A DNA stretch of 64,000 bases, from positions 2,914,001 through 2,978,000 of the forward strand of contig NZ_LT796768.1 of the NCBI RefSeq assembly GCF_900167475.1, in the 5' to 3' direction. Below the pieces are notes generated by a model. The model ran no database searches. It was not told the DNA's origin and saw only the letters and a list, made by a program, of their open reading frames with translations. The position numbers and the translations under genes are program-made. Numbering within the stretch: the first letter of the stretch is position 1; every line of letters begins with the position of its first letter. Shown here one piece after another: positions 289 through 58,517 of the stretch. The stretch is from Aeromicrobium choanae. GTDB lineage: Bacteria; Actinomycetota; Actinomycetes; Propionibacteriales; Nocardioidaceae.

Positions 289-810
289 GTGACCCCGTCC
301 ACGGACCCGGTGGCCGAGCCCCTCGGCCGGCGCCGGGTCGGCCTTTTCGCCGGAGTCGCGCTCGCCGTCGTGGCGATCGACCAGCTCACCAAGTGGTGGG
401 CCGTCGCCCGACTCGACGGGCATGACGCGATCCCCGTGCTCGGCGACCTGCTGAGCCTGCGCTTCGTGCTCAATCCCGGTGCCGCGCTCGGCACCGGAGC
501 CGGCTACACGATCGTGCTGAGCCTGATCGCGATCGCGGTCACCGTGACCCTCGTCGTCATCGCCCCGCGACTGCGTGATCCCTGGTGGGCGGTGGGGCTC
601 GGGCTGTTCCTGGGCGGCGCCGTGGGAAACTTGATCGACCGGCTCTTCCGTGAGCCGTCGTTCCTGCGGGGCCACGTCGTCGACTTCATCGACTACGCCG
701 GGTTCTTCGTCGGGAACGTGGCCGACATCGCCCTGACGGTGGCGGCCGTGATCATCATCTGGCGGTCGTGGCGGGGTCACCGCTTCGACGGCACCCGGGA
801 GGACTCGTGA
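289..810 (+). CDS. lspA: Lipoprotein signal peptidase (signal peptidase II)
   Basis: This 173-residue membrane aspartyl protease cleaves the signal peptide of diacylglyceryl-modified prolipoproteins. Family blocks are present: DQLTKWW after the first membrane helix, NPGAALG, GNLIDR with the first catalytic Asp, and VVDFID followed by GNVADI with the second. Four membrane segments can be seen. The GTG at 289 is chosen because an upstream in-frame start would run through the preceding zinc-finger gene. The last bases overlap the next start (GTGA), indicating translational coupling to the pseudouridine synthase. Its partner lgt lies far away at 33.2 kb. The product has the usual LspA length. Confidence 0.95.
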
Positions 811-1748
811 CATCGGACGACACCACCGAGGTGCGTAGCGTCTACATTCCCGAGGGCCTGGCCGGTGAGCGCGTCGACGTCGCCCTCGCGCGGCTGTTCG
901 GTGTCTCGCGCACGCGCGCCGGCGACCTGGTCGCCGAGGGCCTGGTGCTGCTCGACGGCGCCGCCCCGATGAAGTCCGAGCGCGTCGAGCACGGCGCGCT
1001 GATGGAGGCCACCATCCCGGCTCCGCGGCGCGCCGTCGTCGTGCCCACCGAGGTCGAGGGCATGTCGATCGTGCACGAGGACGACGACATCGTGGTCGTG
1101 GACAAGCCCGTCGGCGTGGCCGCGCACCCCGGCGTGGGCTGGGACGGTCCCACGGTCTCGGGCCACCTGGCTGGCGTGGGCGTGCGGATCTCCACCAGCG
1201 GCGCCCCCGAGCGCCAGGGCATCGTGCAGCGGCTCGACGTCGGCACCAGCGGCCTCATGGTGGTCGCGAAGTCCGAGCGCGCGTACACGATCCTCAAGCA
1301 GGCGTTCCGCGATCGCACGGTCGACAAGACCTACCACTCGCTCGTCCAGGGCCACCCCGACCCGCACACCGGCACGATCGACGCGCCGATCGCGCGTCAC
1401 CCCAAGCACGACTTCAAGTTCACGGTGCGCGCCGACGGCCGCGCCAGCATCACGCACTACGACACGCTCGAGGCGCACCGCTTCGCGTCGCTGCTCGAGA
1501 TCAAGCTCGAGACGGGCCGCACCCACCAGATCCGCGTGCACATGGCCGCGATCAAGCACCCGTGCGTCGGCGACCCGCTCTACGGCGCCGATCCGGTGCT
1601 GGCCAAGCGCGTCGGCCTCGAGCGCCAGTGGCTCCACGCCGTGCGGCTCGGGTTCACCCACCCCGGCACCGGCGAGTGGGCCGAGTACGAGAGCCCGTAC
1701 CCCGACGACCTCCAGCGCGCGCTCGACGTCGTGCGCGACCTCGACTGA
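807..1748 (+). CDS. rluD: RluA/RluD-family 23S rRNA pseudouridine synthase
   Basis: The protein has 313 residues. It has an N-terminal S4 RNA-binding domain (about residues 15-75, with [11 protein letters not shown] and [12 protein letters not shown]). This is followed by the RluA catalytic domain with the active-site aspartate in [16 protein letters not shown]. The motif [11 protein letters not shown] near the C terminus is also family-typical. It isomerises uridines to pseudouridine in rRNA. The GTG at 807 overlaps the lspA stop by 4 bases and has a GGAGG ribosome-binding site about 5 bases upstream. lspA-rluD adjacency is a widely conserved pair. Which uridines are modified cannot be told from sequence, so the symbol is by family only. 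Confidence 0.93.
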
Positions 1749-1763
1749 GGCGCGGGCGCGGGA

Positions 1764-1824
1764 AGCGCTGGCAGTGACGTTTGCGGGGCCGACACGCCGG
1801 TGAGTACCCCCGAAGGGTCACGCT
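1764..1824. repeat. Palindromic repeat element, copy A
   Basis: An imperfect hairpin unit begins AGCGCTGGCAGTGACGTT and continues with CGGGGCCGACACGCCGG. Its right side reads CCCCCGAAGGGTCAC, so the outer right arm is degraded while GTGAC/GTCAC and CGGGG/CCCCG still pair. The reverse complement of copy B (2833-2898) matches its first 24 bases exactly and most of the rest. Copy C (34034-34095) shares the core and orientation. It lies 15 bases after the rluD stop, so it could also end that transcript. Confidence 0.8.
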
Positions 1825-1884
1825 CGCGAATTCGGATGTGGAAAACGCGAGCAACGAGCGCTGGACGGCCCACGCTTGCGGATC

Positions 1885-2844
1885 ATGGAGCCGATCTTCG
1901 CGACCGCGAGAACCCGTGCGTTGACGGCGACGCCGGATGAATTGCGTGGCCCGATGTGGGAGCAGCGTGCGCACGGACTGTGGCGGCCCGCCGGCATGGC
2001 GGTGGGGGAGGCCGACGGGCGAGTCGCGGACGCGATAGCGCTCCTGACCGACGGATGTGTCCTCGGCGGATGGGCCTCCCTGCGATTCCAGGGCAACGAC
2101 GCGTTTGACGGCCGCGACCAAGAGCTGCGCCCGGCGCTCGTGCACTGCGGTGCGGGAACGCAGATGCGCCGCCGCAAGGTGGTCGAACCGTGCCGGGCCG
2201 CCGTCTGGGAACACGAGGTCACGTGCTTCGAGGGTGTTCCGGTGACGACGATGGCGCGAGCCGTGTACGACGAGATGCGCCTCGCCCCGTCACTCAGGGC
2301 AGCGGTCGTCGCCCTGGACTCGGCCGTCGCAGGAGTGCGGGACACGGCGCACACCTCGTTGCGGGCGGTGCAGCAGGTGGTGGACTCACATCGCAAGACG
2401 CGCGGCATCATGAGGGCGAAGAAGGCCCTGCGGCTCGGATCGGAGCGCAGCGCGAGTCCGCTCGAGACCCGGACGAGGCTCGTCGCACAGCTGGACGCCG
2501 GTTTGCAGGACCAACAGGTCAACGCGCCGGTGTTTGGTCCATCGGGTGCCCTGCTCGGGGTCGCCGACCTTCTCGACGAGGAGACCGGGCTGGTGATCGA
2601 GACCGATGGCGCTCACCACCGCGACGCGCAGAACCACACCGACGACAACGTTCGGGAGGAGAGGTTCGAGCGCGCCGGCCTGGTCGTGGTCCGTGCGACG
2701 TCGCTCGACCACAGGGACGTTCCGGGCCTGGTCCACCGCATCCGGCTCGGTCATCGCGACGCCCGGCTCTCCCACCGTCGCGACTGGACCCTCGAGCAAC
2801 CCGCGTGGTTCCGCTCCTGGGGGCCGGGTCGACGCTGGCAGTGA
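1885..2844 (+). CDS. AbiEi/DUF559-type protein with PD-(D/E)XK (Vsr-like) nuclease fold
   Basis: The product has 319 residues. The N-terminal part resembles the AbiEi-like module found on many actinobacterial DUF559 proteins. The C-terminal third carries a restriction-like signature: SPLETRTR, then GVADLLDEETGLVIETDGAHH, then a polar helix ending in RFERAGLVVVRATS. These supply the Glu/Asp positions expected of a Vsr/DUF559 nuclease core. ATG 1885 is preferred over a TTG at 1876. The gene sits between oppositely oriented copies of one palindromic repeat. Its last three codons and its stop lie inside copy B. No methylase or partner gene is adjacent, so the substrate is unknown. It could be a selfish or defence nuclease, or a DNA-repair enzyme. 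Confidence 0.75.
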   Translation: MEPIFATARTRALTATPDELRGPMWEQRAHGLWRPAGMAVGEADGRVADAIALLTDGCVLGGWASLRFQGNDAFDGRDQELRPALVHCGAGTQMRRRKVVEPCRAAVWEHEVTCFEGVPVTTMARAVYDEMRLAPSLRAAVVALDSAVAGVRDTAHTSLRAVQQVVDSHRKTRGIMRAKKALRLGSERSASPLETRTRLVAQLDAGLQDQQVNAPVFGPSGALLGVADLLDEETGLVIETDGAHHRDAQNHTDDNVREERFERAGLVVVRATSLDHRDVPGLVHRIRLGHRDARLSHRRDWTLEQPAWFRSWGPGRRWQ

Positions 2845-2898
2845 CGTTCGTGGGGTACTGACCGGCGTGTCGCGCCCGCAAACGTCACTGCCAGCGCT
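2833..2898. repeat. Palindromic repeat element, copy B (perfect outer arms)
   Basis: The arms CGCTGGCAGTGACGTT (2833-2848) and AACGTCACTGCCAGCG (2881-2896) are exact reverse complements around a 32-base centre containing ACCGGCGTGTCGCG. The orientation is opposite to copy A. The left arm supplies the last codons and stop of the DUF559 gene. The right arm ends 32 bases before the aminotransferase start. The hairpin could terminate transcription, although no T-tract follows. Confidence 0.85.
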
Positions 2899-2929
2899 GC
2901 GCACGGAGGCCGTCCGGCACAATGGGCGC

Positions 2930-4153
2930 ATGAGCCCTGTCGTGCGCCAGTCGGAGAAGTTGAGGGATGTCCTGTACGACATCCGCGGCCCCGTCAGCGC
3001 GCGAGCTGCCCAGCTGGAGGCCGAGGGTCACCGGATCCTCAAGCTCAACATCGGCAACCCGCAGCCGTTCGGCTTCGACGCGCCCTCGGAGATCCTCCAG
3101 GACGTCATCGCCGGCCTCCCGACGGCGCAGGGGTACTCCGACTCCCGCGGCATCCAGTCCGCCCGCCGCGCAGTCGTGCACCACTACCAGCTGCAGGACG
3201 GCTTCCCGGCGATCGACATCGACGACGTCTGGCTCGGGAACGGCGTCAGCGAGCTGATCCAGATCGCCCTGCAGGCGCTGCTCGACAACGGCGATGAGGT
3301 GCTGATTCCCACGCCGGACTACCCGCTGTGGACCGCCGTCACCAACCTCGCCGGCGGCCGGCCGGTGCACTACCGGTGCGACGAGGAGAACGACTGGAAC
3401 CCCGACCTCGAGGACCTCGAGTCCAAGATCACCGACCGCACCAAGGTCATCGTCGTGATCAACCCGAACAACCCCACGGGCGCGGTCTACAGCCGCGAGA
3501 CGCTCACCGCGATCGCCGACCTGGCGCGCAAGCACGACCTGATCCTCATGGCCGACGAGATCTACGACAAGATCCTGTACGACGACGCCGTGCACATCCC
3601 GATGGCCAGCGTCGCGCCCGACGTGCTGACCCTGACCTTCAACGGCCTGTCCAAGGCGTACCGGGTGTGCGGCTACCGCGCCGGCTGGCTCGTGGTGACC
3701 GGCCCGCTCGAGCGCGCGGAGGACTACCTCGAGGGCCTCACGCTGCTGGCCTCGATGCGCCTGTGCCCCAACGTGCCGGCCCAGAACGCGATCCAGGTGG
3801 CGCTCGGCGGCTACCAGTCGATCAAGGAGCTCATCCTGCCCGGCGGCCGCCTGCTCGAGCAGCGCGACACCGCCGTCAACGAGCTGCGCAAGATCCCCGG
3901 CGTCAGCGTGGTCACGCCGCGCGGAGCCCTCTACGCCTTCCCGCGCCTGGACCCCGAGGTGTACCCGATCAAGGACGACCAGCGGTTCGTGCTCGACCTG
4001 TTGATGAGCGAGAAGATCCTGCTCACGCAGGGGACGGGCTTCAACTGGCCCGATCCCGACCACCTCCGCATCGTGACGCTGCCGTGGTCGCGCGATCTTG
4101 CCGAGGCCATCCAGCGGATGGGGAACTTCCTCAGCACCTACCGCCAGGACTGA
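2930..4153 (+). CDS. alaA: Pyridoxal-phosphate aminotransferase, AlaA (alanine/aspartate aminotransferase) type
   Basis: This 407-residue class I/II fold type I aminotransferase is close to the AlaA/AspC-like group. Visible blocks are LNIGNPQPFGF near the N terminus, GNGVSELIQIAL, VINPNNPTGAVYS, MADEIYDKILYD, and the PLP-binding lysine in FNGLSKAYRVCGYRAGW. AlaA enzymes interconvert pyruvate and alanine with glutamate as amino donor. ATG 2930 follows a CACAAT hexamer by 6 bases, a near-match to the leaderless pattern in this window. An in-frame extension further upstream runs through the nuclease gene and is not credible. The 3' end overlaps the convergent LicD gene by 16 bases. Exact substrate choice is inference. 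Confidence 0.87.
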   Translation: MSPVVRQSEKLRDVLYDIRGPVSARAAQLEAEGHRILKLNIGNPQPFGFDAPSEILQDVIAGLPTAQGYSDSRGIQSARRAVVHHYQLQDGFPAIDIDDVWLGNGVSELIQIALQALLDNGDEVLIPTPDYPLWTAVTNLAGGRPVHYRCDEENDWNPDLEDLESKITDRTKVIVVINPNNPTGAVYSRETLTAIADLARKHDLILMADEIYDKILYDDAVHIPMASVAPDVLTLTFNGLSKAYRVCGYRAGWLVVTGPLERAEDYLEGLTLLASMRLCPNVPAQNAIQVALGGYQSIKELILPGGRLLEQRDTAVNELRKIPGVSVVTPRGALYAFPRLDPEVYPIKDDQRFVLDLLMSEKILLTQGTGFNWPDPDHLRIVTLPWSRDLAEAIQRMGNFLSTYRQD

Positions 4154-14024: not shown

Positions 14025-14107
14025 CAGTTTCCCCGGTTAGCCGGGTTTTCTCTCACTGAACGAGGTTCGCGAACCATGTTCAGTGTCAGTTTCCCCGCTT
14101 GACCGGG
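14025..14107. repeat. 32-bp palindrome nested between two 21-bp direct repeats
   Basis: Direct repeats lie at 14025-14045 and 14087-14107. Both begin CAGTTTCCCCG and end CCGGG; they match at 18 of 21 bases. Exactly between them, 14054-14085 is a palindrome of CACTGAAC, then GGTTCGCGAACC, then GTTCAGTG, with only two mismatched pairs. The whole lies between the benE stop and the ybaK start on the minus strand. The left direct repeat is itself a CCCGG-TTAG-CCGGG hairpin followed by TTTT. It may be an operator array, a terminator pair or a small repeat element. Confidence 0.8.
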
Positions 14108-14114
14108 GGAGCTG

Positions 14115-33226: not shown

Positions 33227-34066
33227 ATGACCATCGCCGCCTACATCCCCTCGCCCGAGCAGGCCGTCTGGCACCTCGGGCCGCTGCCCCTGCGGGCCTA
33301 CGCGCTGTGCATCATCGCCGGCGTCTTCGCCGCCATCTGGATCGCCGAGCGGCGCTACGTGGCTGCCGGAGGCCGTCCCGGCGCGATCGGCGACGTGGCG
33401 ATCTGGGCCGTGCCGTTCGGCATCATCGGCGGACGGATCTACCACGTCCTCACCGACCCCCAGCTCTACTTCGGCGACGGTCGCGACCCGATCGACGCGC
33501 TGAAGATCTGGGAGGGCGGCCTGGGCATCTGGGGCGCCATCGCGTTCGGCGGCCTGGGCGCGTGGATCGCGTGCCGACGGTACGACATCGACTTCCTGAA
33601 GATGGCCGACGCCCTGGCGCCCGGACTTCTCGTCGCGCAGGCGATCGGACGACTCGGCAACTACTTCAACCAGGAGCTCTTCGGCCGTCCCACCACGGTG
33701 CCGTGGGCCCTGGAGATCTCCGAGCGGCACCGTCCCGACGGCTTCGAGCAGTTCGCCACGTTCCACCCGACGTTCCTCTACGAGGCACTGTGGAACCTGG
33801 CGGCCGCGGCGCTGCTCGTGTGGCTGGGCAAGCGCTTCGCGCTGACGCACGGACGGGTCTTCGCGCTCTACGTCATGCTCTACACCCTCGGGCGCGGCTG
33901 GATCGAGTCCCTGCGGATCGACACGGTGAACCACATCGGGCCGTTCCGGCTGAACATCTGGACCTCGATCGTGGTGTTCTGCCTGGCCCTGGCCTACTTC
34001 GTGTGGGCCGGCCGCCGGTACCGCGAGAGCCCTGAGCGTGACGTTTCCGGGGCCGACGCGCCGTAG
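33227..34066 (+). CDS. lgt: Prolipoprotein diacylglyceryl transferase
   Basis: This 279-residue membrane enzyme transfers diacylglycerol to the lipobox cysteine. It has seven helices and the Lgt signature GRLGNYFNQELFGRP. GGLGIWGA and the essential arginine region LGRGWIESLRID are also present. trpA-lgt linkage is usual in actinobacteria. The last ten codons (ERDVSGADAP) and the TAG come from palindromic repeat copy C. The natural C terminus was probably altered by the repeat. It acts before LspA on prolipoproteins. Confidence 0.96.
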   Translation: MTIAAYIPSPEQAVWHLGPLPLRAYALCIIAGVFAAIWIAERRYVAAGGRPGAIGDVAIWAVPFGIIGGRIYHVLTDPQLYFGDGRDPIDALKIWEGGLGIWGAIAFGGLGAWIACRRYDIDFLKMADALAPGLLVAQAIGRLGNYFNQELFGRPTTVPWALEISERHRPDGFEQFATFHPTFLYEALWNLAAAALLVWLGKRFALTHGRVFALYVMLYTLGRGWIESLRIDTVNHIGPFRLNIWTSIVVFCLALAYFVWAGRRYRESPERDVSGADAP

Positions 34067-34095
34067 GCGACCCCCGGAACGTCACTGCCAGCGCT
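34034..34095. repeat. Palindromic repeat element, copy C
   Basis: GTGACGTT (34038-34045) pairs with AACGTCAC (34078-34085). CCGGGG pairs with CCCCGG inside, and the right side continues TGCCAGCGCT as in copy B. Orientation matches copy A. The left end encodes the lgt C terminus, and the right end stops 4 bases before the minus-strand MT0933-like gene. It sits exactly at a convergent junction, so a bidirectional terminator role is possible. Confidence 0.82.
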
Positions 34096-45534: not shown

Positions 45535-45588
45535 CGCACACGGCGCCCATCGATGCCTCGGGGAAGGGGCCGGTGGGCGCCGTGTGCG
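45535..45588 (+). terminator. Terminator hairpin after the LysM gene
   Basis: CGCACACGGCGCCCA (45535-45549) pairs exactly with TGGGCGCCGTGTGCG (45574-45588) around a 24-base loop and is followed by TCTTCTCGT. It begins 20 bases after the stop. Confidence 0.8.
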
Positions 45589-46190: not shown

Positions 46191-46199
46191 GACCGAACG

Positions 46200-46234
46200 G
46201 ACGAATGCCCCGGTCGTGGACCGGGGCATTCGTC
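46200..46234. terminator. Bidirectional terminator between membrane protein and dps
   Basis: GACGAATGCCCCGGTC (46200-46215) and its exact complement (46219-46234) form a 16-bp stem with a three-base loop between convergent genes. Confidence 0.85.
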
Positions 46235-46251
46235 TGCTCGAGTGGGTGTGG

Positions 46252-56825: not shown

Positions 56826-58517
56826 TCAGCGCACCGCCGCACGGGCGGCGAGTCGCTCCGCGATCCCACTGGATCGGGCGACTCGCCGCCCGATCGCCGT
56901 CCGGATGTCCTCGGGCGTGCCGATCACGGTCACCCCGGTGACGGCTCGGGTGATGGCGGTGTAGAGCAGCTCGCGCGTCATGGCGCGCGACTCGGCTCCC
57001 GGCAGCAGCACGGTGACGTGGTCGAACTCGCTGCCCTGGCTGCGGTGGATCGTCATTGCGTAGCCGGTCTGCACGTCGGGCAGGCGCGAGGTGGCCAGCT
57101 CGCGCACCGGGTCGCCGTCGAGCGCCACCAGGACGTGCTCGTCGCGTGCCACCACCACGCCCGCGTCGCCGTTGAACACCGCGAGCGGGGCGTCGTTGCG
57201 GGTGACCAGCACCGGACGGCCGGGGTACCACTCGTCGTAGCCCACGTCGGGCCGCAGCCAGGCGGTGACGTGGTCGTTCCAGGTGGTGGCTCCGTGCGGG
57301 CCGTCGCGGTGCGCGCACAGCAGCCGGTGGCGGGCCAGCCGGGCGAGGGCCGTGGCCTCGTCGCCCGACCGTCCCGCGGCGACGAGGTCGCGGGCCAGCG
57401 GCAGCAGGGTGGACTCCAGCTCGGCGTGGGCGCGGGCGGGATCGACGAGCCGGATCGACGGCTCACCGGCCGTGAGGAGGTCGACGGCGGTGTCGGCGTC
57501 GCCGTCGCGGACCGCGGCGGCCAGCCGGCCGATGCCCGCCCCGAAGCGGTGGCTGCGCGTGAGCCGGACGACGTGCTCAGAGGACCAGCCGGCCACGACG
57601 TCGTGCAGCACCGCGCCCGCCTCGACCGAGGCCAGCTGGTCGGCGTCGCCGACCAGGATCAGGCGGGTGTCCGGGCGCAGGGCCTCCAGCAGCCGGGCCA
57701 CGTGCTCCAGGGACGCCATCGAGGTCTCGTCGACCACGACCACGTCGTGGGGCAGCCGCCGGTTGCGGTCGTGGCGGAACCGCGTGTGGTTGTCGTGGCG
57801 CCAGCCGAGGAGGCGGTGCATCGTGGACGAGGGCAGGCCGGTGAGCCACGCGCGTTCGTCGTCGGTGAGGGCGAGGCGCGCGGCCGTGGCGACCACCGCC
57901 TCGCGCATGCGCGCGGCCGCCTTGCCGGTGGGTGCCGTGAGCGCCACGCGCAGCGGTCGGCCCAGCGTGGCGAGCGACTGGGCCTGCAGGATCGCCAGCA
58001 CGCCGGCGACCGTGGTGGTCTTGCCGGTGCCGGGCCCGCCCGTGAGCACGATCGTGGCCACGCGGGCCGCGCGCTCGGCGGCCGCCCGCTGGTCGAGGTG
58101 CTCGTCTCCCGGGAAGAGGCGGTCGAGATCGGCGGTGAGCCGCTGCTCGTCGAGCGCCGGGGGCGTCGTGGCGGCCCGGGCCGCGAGGTCGTCGCACAGC
58201 GCGACCTCGAGCTCGCGGTAGCGGTCGAGGTAGAGCAGGTCGTGCTCGGCGACGAGCACCCGTCCGAGCCCGCTCGCGCGAACGGCCTCCAGCCACGCCT
58301 CGGCATCGGGCCAGGCGAGGCCGGGGACCTCGGGATCCTGGCGCGGGTCGAAGCAGGTGGAGCCGTGGCGGACGGCGCGCAGCGCGAACGCCAGGGCGAG
58401 CAACGGCAGGGGAGCGGACTCACCGGTGATCCGTCCGAGTCGTGCGGTCATCAGCGCGTCGCCCGGGGTGAGGACCTCGGCGGCGACGAAGTCGTCGATC
58501 GTGGCGTGCGGGGTCAT
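56826..58517 (-). CDS. recD: RecBCD exonuclease V, alpha subunit
   Basis: This 563-residue SF1B 5'-3' helicase has Walker A VLTGGPGTGKTTTVAG, Walker B VVVVDETSMASLEHV and motif III GDADQLASVEAGAVLHD. The C-terminal 2B/SH3 region includes GYAMTIHRSQGSEFDHVTVLLP and ELLYTAITRAV. ATG 58517 overlaps the recB stop (ATGA). The length is close to normal RecD. It is the last gene of a recC-recB-recD operon. Confidence 0.95.
   Translation of the reverse strand: MTPHATIDDFVAAEVLTPGDALMTARLGRITGESAPLPLLALAFALRAVRHGSTCFDPRQDPEVPGLAWPDAEAWLEAVRASGLGRVLVAEHDLLYLDRYRELEVALCDDLAARAATTPPALDEQRLTADLDRLFPGDEHLDQRAAAERAARVATIVLTGGPGTGKTTTVAGVLAILQAQSLATLGRPLRVALTAPTGKAAARMREAVVATAARLALTDDERAWLTGLPSSTMHRLLGWRHDNHTRFRHDRNRRLPHDVVVVDETSMASLEHVARLLEALRPDTRLILVGDADQLASVEAGAVLHDVVAGWSSEHVVRLTRSHRFGAGIGRLAAAVRDGDADTAVDLLTAGEPSIRLVDPARAHAELESTLLPLARDLVAAGRSGDEATALARLARHRLLCAHRDGPHGATTWNDHVTAWLRPDVGYDEWYPGRPVLVTRNDAPLAVFNGDAGVVVARDEHVLVALDGDPVRELATSRLPDVQTGYAMTIHRSQGSEFDHVTVLLPGAESRAMTRELLYTAITRAVTGVTVIGTPEDIRTAIGRRVARSSGIAERLAARAAVR

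Follow-up and report, generated by a model that had tools for sequence, protein, structure and literature searches.

Among the systems described so far, the closest counterparts of the locus reported here are the REP elements and their RAYT enzymes, where a repeat-bracketed gene is accompanied by dispersed solo repeats and where each set has a repeat of its own (PMC3116915, PMC3733652). RAYTs are tyrosine transposases of the HUH Y1 type with GTAG-tagged repeats, the tag being either GTAG or CGTC at one end of the repeat (PMC3116915, PMC3733652). Inverted repeats are also bound by AbiEi antitoxins (PMC7319586). Here we describe a palindrome-bracketed gene that encodes a nuclease of the DUF559 type (PF04480), a family whose function is given as unknown by Pfam. 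The gene is contained in a stretch of 64,000 nucleotides, referred to as the window, which corresponds to C1:2914001-2978000 of a complete 3.42-Mb Aeromicrobium genome (G000, the source genome).

The nuclease gene and its flanking palindromes

The nuclease gene is free-standing between rluD and alaA, with two copies of a palindrome, A and B, located on opposite strands around it (Table 1). The reverse complement of B is identical to A over its first 24 bases (24/24), and the final codons and the stop of the nuclease reading frame are contained within B. The same cassette is found at the same location in A. flavum (L023, 78% identity), where the counterpart of copy A is better kept (L023 2878-2949, with 34-nt arms that are 82% complementary).

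Table 1. Positions of the cassette, its host-gene neighbours and the solo palindrome S in the window
Feature	Position	Strand	Remarks
rluD, pseudouridine synthase	807..1748	+	Left flanking host gene; the GTG start at 807 is our choice
Palindrome copy A	1763..1830	+	14 bp past the rluD stop; right arm decayed; 68.5 bits (covariance model)
Nuclease gene, 319 aa	1885..2844	+	AbiEi-like region at residues ~82-171; C-terminal Vsr-like PD-(D/E)XK / DUF559 domain at ~190-298
Palindrome copy B	2831..2899	-	Intact; inverted relative to A; 83.3 bits (covariance model)
alaA-like class I/II aminotransferase	2930..4153	+	Right flanking host gene; the name alaA is that of the earlier note
Solo palindrome S	34027..34095	+	At a gene 3' end; 80.3 bits (covariance model)

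Plain BLAST first linked copies A, B and S, and all three contributed to a covariance model built from 13 copies. A search with this model located 14 copies in the source genome, of which 12, S among them, are solo copies and the other two are A and B; the majority of the 14 are found near stop codons. The palindrome spans about 68 bp and consists of two arms and a loop carrying a conserved motif that confers direction. B and S fold far better than shuffled sequence (z -6.3 and -4.7, respectively), and copy A, whose right arm is lost, folds no better than shuffles (z -0.5). The placement of 51 solo copies from four species was assessed relative to open reading frames called by codon composition, with distances being approximate: 19 reside between convergent, 24 between tandem and 5 between divergent genes, and 3 apparently within a reading frame. 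Of the 62 scored edges of solo copies that face a stop codon, 41 fall within -6 to +10 bp of it, and at nine such edges the stop codon ends with the first base of the repeat. When compared to Rfam, the palindrome of copy B matched only microRNA families below gathering scores, which we took as chance likeness. Other strong inverted repeats, unassigned to a family, are located in the window at 46194-46240, 45535-45588 and 56835-56899.

The assignment of the protein to DUF559 is narrow. In frame, the match of 21.3 bits meets the curated cut-off of 20.6, which is not the case for the protein alone (20.0 bits), and the A. flavum homologue clears it with 22.9 bits. AbiEi models align to residues 82-171 in the window protein and to residues 30-184 in its L022 paralogue. 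In a comparison of a predicted structure by VIA-align, the fold closest to the C-terminal domain is the catalytic domain of the homing endonuclease I-Bth0305I (3r3p_A, Z 10.9, rmsd 2.4, 95 residues), with a Neisseria endonuclease-like protein (Z 9.6) and, at a lower level, TnsA (Z 7.0) as next-closest folds. Rows for mitochondrial-ribosome and FASTKD4 proteins obtained Z 8.6-9.1, and Foldseek alone gave no match to the model at E 0.001 or better. The confidence of this model (mean pLDDT 61) is mostly 79-95 over residues 191-300 with a dip at 241-250, and it is low at residues 1-120, leaving the N-terminal region unresolved. E194, D228, E239, D254 and R257 are invariant across 54 members (in window numbering; the alignment of these members numbers residues three higher because its reading frame starts at 1876). 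The invariance of these acidic residues is shown; that they reflect an active enzyme is an inference from sequence alone, for which there is no biochemical evidence. NCBIfam contained nothing useful for the nuclease, and one scan of viral contigs, which concerned carriage by phages, found no relative of it.

An earlier note on the window, made without database searches, had claimed that A and B are inverted around the nuclease gene, that they match exactly over 24 bases and that the last codons lie in B, all of which held. Its solo copy at 34034-34095 held as well, with the covariance model extending it to 34027-34095, and its three copies have become 14 in the source genome. The DUF559-type assignment held narrowly.

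Matching flanks, cognate palindromes and co-occurrence

The source genome contains five DUF559 matches above the family cut-off. Of the other four genes, three (L019, L020, L022) are each bracketed by a pair of another palindrome, and the remaining one (L021) has a long pair of similar flanks (score 48) that do not form a simple hairpin and are unexplained. For a general comparison, we aligned the two flanks (5' and 3') of every gene locally and counted a score of 30 or higher as a pass. The set included 75 DUF559 genes, namely the five from the source genome, 30 loci returned by a search and 40 chosen before their flanks were viewed, of which 73 remained after two with a cut flank were dropped. 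As controls we used 65 other genes from 40 stretches of genomes in the same family, the Nocardioidaceae. Matching flanks are found at 56 of 73 DUF559 genes but only at 4 of 65 controls (Fisher p 3e-18). Without the five genes of the source genome that prompted the idea 51 of 68 pass, and the 40 later-fetched loci alone yield 30/40. Both segments are also hairpins in 51/73 DUF559 genes as opposed to 3/65 controls (L156, L157 and L160). Exchanging downstream flanks between loci left no more than 2 of about 72 passing in any of 20 trials. At lower thresholds, the corresponding counts are 59/73 versus 8/65 (at 26) and 68/73 versus 28/65 (at 20), and 17 of the 73 DUF559 genes remain below the chosen threshold. 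The pairing of flanks at these genes is shown. Chance or local coincidence was considered as its explanation and is ruled out by the controls and the swapped flanks.

Among the 56 passing pairs, 31 are inverted, 21 direct and 4 tied, and with 21 direct cases the palindromes are thus not regular terminal inverted repeats. The matching pairs vary between loci, even inside one genome. By eye, five DUF559 cassettes with different palindromes (L085, L109, L115, L121, L124) seem to share a neighbourhood with a metallo-hydrolase-like gene upstream and a Crp/Fnr-like gene downstream.

Among 120 genomes of the family, 106 contain a DUF559 match, and a sample of the class gave a match in 131 of its 197 genomes. 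The class-wide flank test comprised 59 loci, from which 11 that were cut and two further Aeromicrobium loci (both of which pass) were removed, leaving 46. Outside the family, 17 of these 46 loci pass, distributed over nine numbered families, with 14/27 among hand-picked and 3/19 among usable top-scoring loci; there were no control genes from these families and the score threshold was borrowed. From these counts, the palindrome-bracketed trait appears to be that of a subfamily.

The relationship between nuclease and palindrome was found to be specific. Eleven palindromes from as many DUF559 loci were sought in eight genomes, and 150 of the 182 result rows were counted. In these rows, 75 of the 77 off-diagonal cells of the palindrome-by-genome matrix are empty, and every palindrome is present in its own genome, at 2 to 16 places if bracketing copies are included. 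Dispersal is unequal among nucleases, since the palindrome of L085 is represented among the counted rows by its two bracketing copies only, and those of L122 and L114 by one extra copy each. The two off-diagonal exceptions concern the palindrome of L022, with 7 copies in G060, and that of L019, with 3 weak copies in G071 that have no nuclease assigned to them. The nuclease in G060 is 72% identical to that of L022, and the six other genomes outside the source genome, with at most 49% identity or no match, contain zero L022 palindromes. In G116, which has no DUF559 match, none of the 11 palindromes was found. Across 54 genes, palindromes are alike only when proteins are alike (Mantel p 0.001), with a palindrome shared by 45% of the 31 pairs above 0.6 protein similarity and by at most 2% in lower bands. 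The N-terminal part yields a partial rank correlation of 0.16 and the nuclease part one of -0.04, which is only a weak indication of the protein region that predicts the palindrome.

The co-occurrence of both components was investigated in 49 Aeromicrobium genomes, with a cognate nuclease defined by E below 1e-60 and palindrome hits accepted up to E 0.001 and counted on both strands. The cognate nuclease is present in 23 genomes, a fragment in one (G124, with 14 palindrome hits), and 25 genomes are without. Seven or more palindrome hits are found in 22 of the 23 genomes with the nuclease but in only 4 of the 25 lacking it (Fisher p 1e-8, uncorrected for relatedness), and 16 of these 25 show zero hits. 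In G071 the nuclease is present with one hit, and its flanking palindrome pair has diverged with both members changed alike. The nuclease is missing but palindromes remain in G106, G108, G114 and G136 (the last being 58% complete). The association of nuclease and palindrome and their cognate specificity are shown, and each nuclease likely tends to own a private palindrome family, making this a class rather than a single cassette.

Occupied and empty sites and the upkeep of the palindrome

The junction between rluD and alaA is found in different states in related genomes. Of 45 genomes with rluD, 30 were retrieved as loci for comparison. The cassette is forward in 4 of them and reversed in 7; in 13 the gene is absent and the gap does not exceed 333 bp, and in the other 6 the content differs or alaA is out of reach. 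The gap measures 53-193 bp in 12 of the 13 gene-absent junctions, in some of which a solo palindrome from a different family is found. Ten further junctions include one forward (G053), one reversed (G112) and two empty cases (G106, G108), three with alaA out of reach and three with gaps over 2 kb that contain no match to the nuclease. In six genomes (G089, G092, G098, G071, G123, G095), a homologous nuclease resides on the same contig more than 330 kb from rluD. Forward, reversed and elsewhere states are interleaved in the nuclease tree, whose deep forks are weak. Empty and occupied sites, as well as reversed and relocated cassettes, are shown by these comparisons.

Inspection by eye found palindromes of other sequence, with the gene missing, at the rluD-alaA junctions of G049, G071 and G108 (L192, L193, L385). 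Such other-family palindromes at nuclease-less junctions suggest a hot spot. An imperfect palindrome at 14025-14114 of the window matches the palindrome at the rluD-alaA junction of G114 (L167) with a local score of 37, compared to 10-12 for eight other junction loci, and a second palindrome family may therefore use the same junction.

Solo sites were compared with copies fetched from the source genome (12), G043 (9), G114 (9) and G101 (21, with about four left out). Twelve sites are common to two to four species and 16 are found in one only, and many solo copies are thus old. The site of S is also occupied by a copy in G043, G114 and G101. For site o2432 of the source genome, where the insertion lies directly 3' of a TGA stop, clean empty counterparts are known from G043, G114, G060 and G029. 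No clear target-site duplication was recognized at o2432, the sole clean empty site aligned in full. Another site, o1325, is empty in G114 and contains other sequence in G043. Together, the empty and the shared sites illustrate both recent gain and older inheritance. Near 328.4-329.2 kb of the source genome (L010 1235-1986), about 750 bp beside a solo palindrome are missing at the matching place in G101 (L278).

A further observation relates to G114, where no homologue of the nuclease was detected at E 1e-10. The loop motif is kept within one mismatch in all 42 fetched solo copies of the three genomes G000, G043 and G101 but only in 3/9 copies of the nuclease-less G114. The median covariance-model score is 57.7 in G114 compared to 82.6-86.7 in nuclease-bearing genomes, with the model having been built from G000. 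The pairing of stems differs little (20.6 of 28 positions in G114, 20.8 in G043, 21.8 in G000 and 23.6 in G101). The loss of the motif in this one genome is shown. Since G101 is more distant from G000 than G114 (rluD protein identities of 91% and 95%, respectively) and yet keeps the motif, distance alone does not explain its loss in G114.

The earlier note had proposed a link between the repeat and DUF559 genes, which held far above controls (56/73 compared to 4/65), and had expected relatives with an rluD-alaA junction lacking the cassette, which held with twelve gaps of 53-193 bp among 30 loci. It would have been refuted by a repeat scattered at random without connection to DUF559 genes and by the absence of any empty junction, and both came out in its favour. 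Its reading of a mobile unit is supported, with movement of the element by the nuclease still inferred. The inverted layout is only partly general, in light of the direct pairs, and the one cassette it had described is widened to a class whose nucleases each tend to be paired with a palindrome of their own.

Interpretation, alternatives and relationship to known systems

On balance, we favour, with modest confidence, an interpretation of the window cassette as a member of an actinobacterial system that consists of a nuclease gene between two palindromes together with dispersed solo palindromes, and that resembles REP/RAYT elements with a Vsr-like nuclease and an AbiEi-like region in place of the tyrosine transposase. 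In the mechanism we propose, the AbiEi-like region would recognize the cognate palindrome, perhaps as a hairpin of single-stranded DNA during replication, although there are no binding data, and the nuclease domain would nick or cut at the palindrome or at some target close to the end of a gene, with cutting being inferred. A nuclease alone does not join DNA and host repair must therefore be invoked, which would copy the palindrome into a new site or refresh old copies, and a gene located between two palindrome copies may on rare occasions be copied along. Binding, cutting and the nuclease as cause of the movement and upkeep of the palindromes are in each case inferred, without biochemical or experimental evidence.

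Three alternatives deserve consideration, all of which we regard as unlikely. In the first, the palindromes serve as bidirectional terminators of transcription, accompanying the gene and insulating it, and the task of the nuclease is unrelated. This simpler reading of shared terminators had been mentioned in the earlier note, and solo copies are indeed located at other gene ends, as it would predict, with 41/62 stop-facing edges close to a stop codon. It is also supported by the strong hairpins and by stems that are largely kept in the nuclease-less G114. However, terminators do not need a private sequence that is common to both flanks, dispersed and nearly restricted to genomes with a matching nuclease, and the conserved loop motif, mostly gone where the nuclease is gone, argues against them too. 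In the second alternative, the protein is a nuclease of a defence or toxin-like kind that controls itself by way of its AbiEi-like region, with the palindromes as operators, while the palindromes spread by other means. In its favour, AbiEi models match and AbiEi antitoxins autoregulate via inverted repeats (PMC7319586), but the downstream copy and the copies dispersed at gene 3' ends would be unnecessary for autoregulation, and the neighbours in the window, which are the only ones considered, are rluD and an aminotransferase rather than an AbiEii toxin. The third, a free-standing homing endonuclease that inserts beside or between pre-existing palindromes moved by an unknown transposase, is consistent with the closest fold (I-Bth0305I) and with the other-family solo palindromes at some gene-less junctions (L192, L193, L385), but it is opposed by the cognate specificity and co-occurrence, by matching pairs that differ by locus even within one genome and by the lack of any match to Y1_Tnp, the sole transposase family searched, in the source genome. 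All three alternatives leave the private, nuclease-linked repeat families unexplained.

Returning to the preferred reading of a nuclease that drives its own palindromes, such activity, if confirmed, would define a role for part of DUF559, account for many of the dispersed hairpins in these GC-rich genomes and add an enzyme chemistry to the few known routes for the spread of tiny palindromes. Each genome offers a natural set of matched enzyme-site pairs that would be useful to learn how the AbiEi-like region reads DNA.

With respect to known systems, the AbiE type IV toxin-antitoxins share the protein part ahead of the nuclease, which matches models of the antitoxin AbiEi, but here this region is fused to a nuclease and the repeats are dispersed. 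The AbiE pair, with AbiEi followed by the AbiEii nucleotidyltransferase, was examined as a candidate and is not met by the neighbours in the window. EDxHD or Vsr-like homing endonucleases such as I-Bth0305I provide the closest solved fold of the C-terminal domain, and their Vsr-like catalytic fold is met, whereas the gene described here is free-standing, with no intron or intein noticed, and comes with flanking palindromes of its own and with solo copies dispersed in the genome. MITEs and the ends of IS200-IS605 elements are similar as small palindromic units with clean empty sites, but the source genome is without a Y1 transposase, the only type searched for, and no clear target duplication is seen at the site aligned.

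The closest resemblance is to REP/REPIN elements and their RAYTs (REPtrons, TIRtrons), which likewise comprise a single-copy gene bracketed by palindromic repeats, solo copies at extragenic sites and several gene-repeat sets per genome with their own repeat each. As in a REPtron, the palindromes that bracket the gene recur dispersed over its genome, with the exception of L085, which has no solo copy among the counted rows. In contrast to RAYTs, the cassettes encode a PD-(D/E)XK nuclease that has an AbiEi-like region, and the hairpins, which at DUF559 cassettes mostly measure about 50-90 bp, are longer and carry no obvious common end tag; by eye, none is common to the copy alignment or the flank pairs, and CGTC is found inside many palindromes. 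Membership among RAYTs is ruled out, as the source genome has 0 matches to Y1_Tnp (PF01797) and the bracketed gene is of the DUF559/PD-(D/E)XK type. In the open-access literature searched, which covers few subscription papers or preprints, we found no description of a DUF559 nuclease with its own palindromes or inverted repeats. Within this scope, we incline to the view that the system is new in kind, because REP/RAYT, the most similar known family, fails on the defining enzyme despite its similar behaviour, and because the other systems either fail a tested feature or leave the dispersed cognate repeats unexplained. In a bolder reading, which we hold to be slightly better supported than its opposite, it would constitute an undescribed class of actinobacterial mobile DNA, where a private family of hairpins is maintained, spread and renewed by a Vsr-like nuclease joined to an AbiEi-like region that reads palindromes. 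The REP/RAYT way of life would then have arisen a second time, independently and with an unrelated enzyme.
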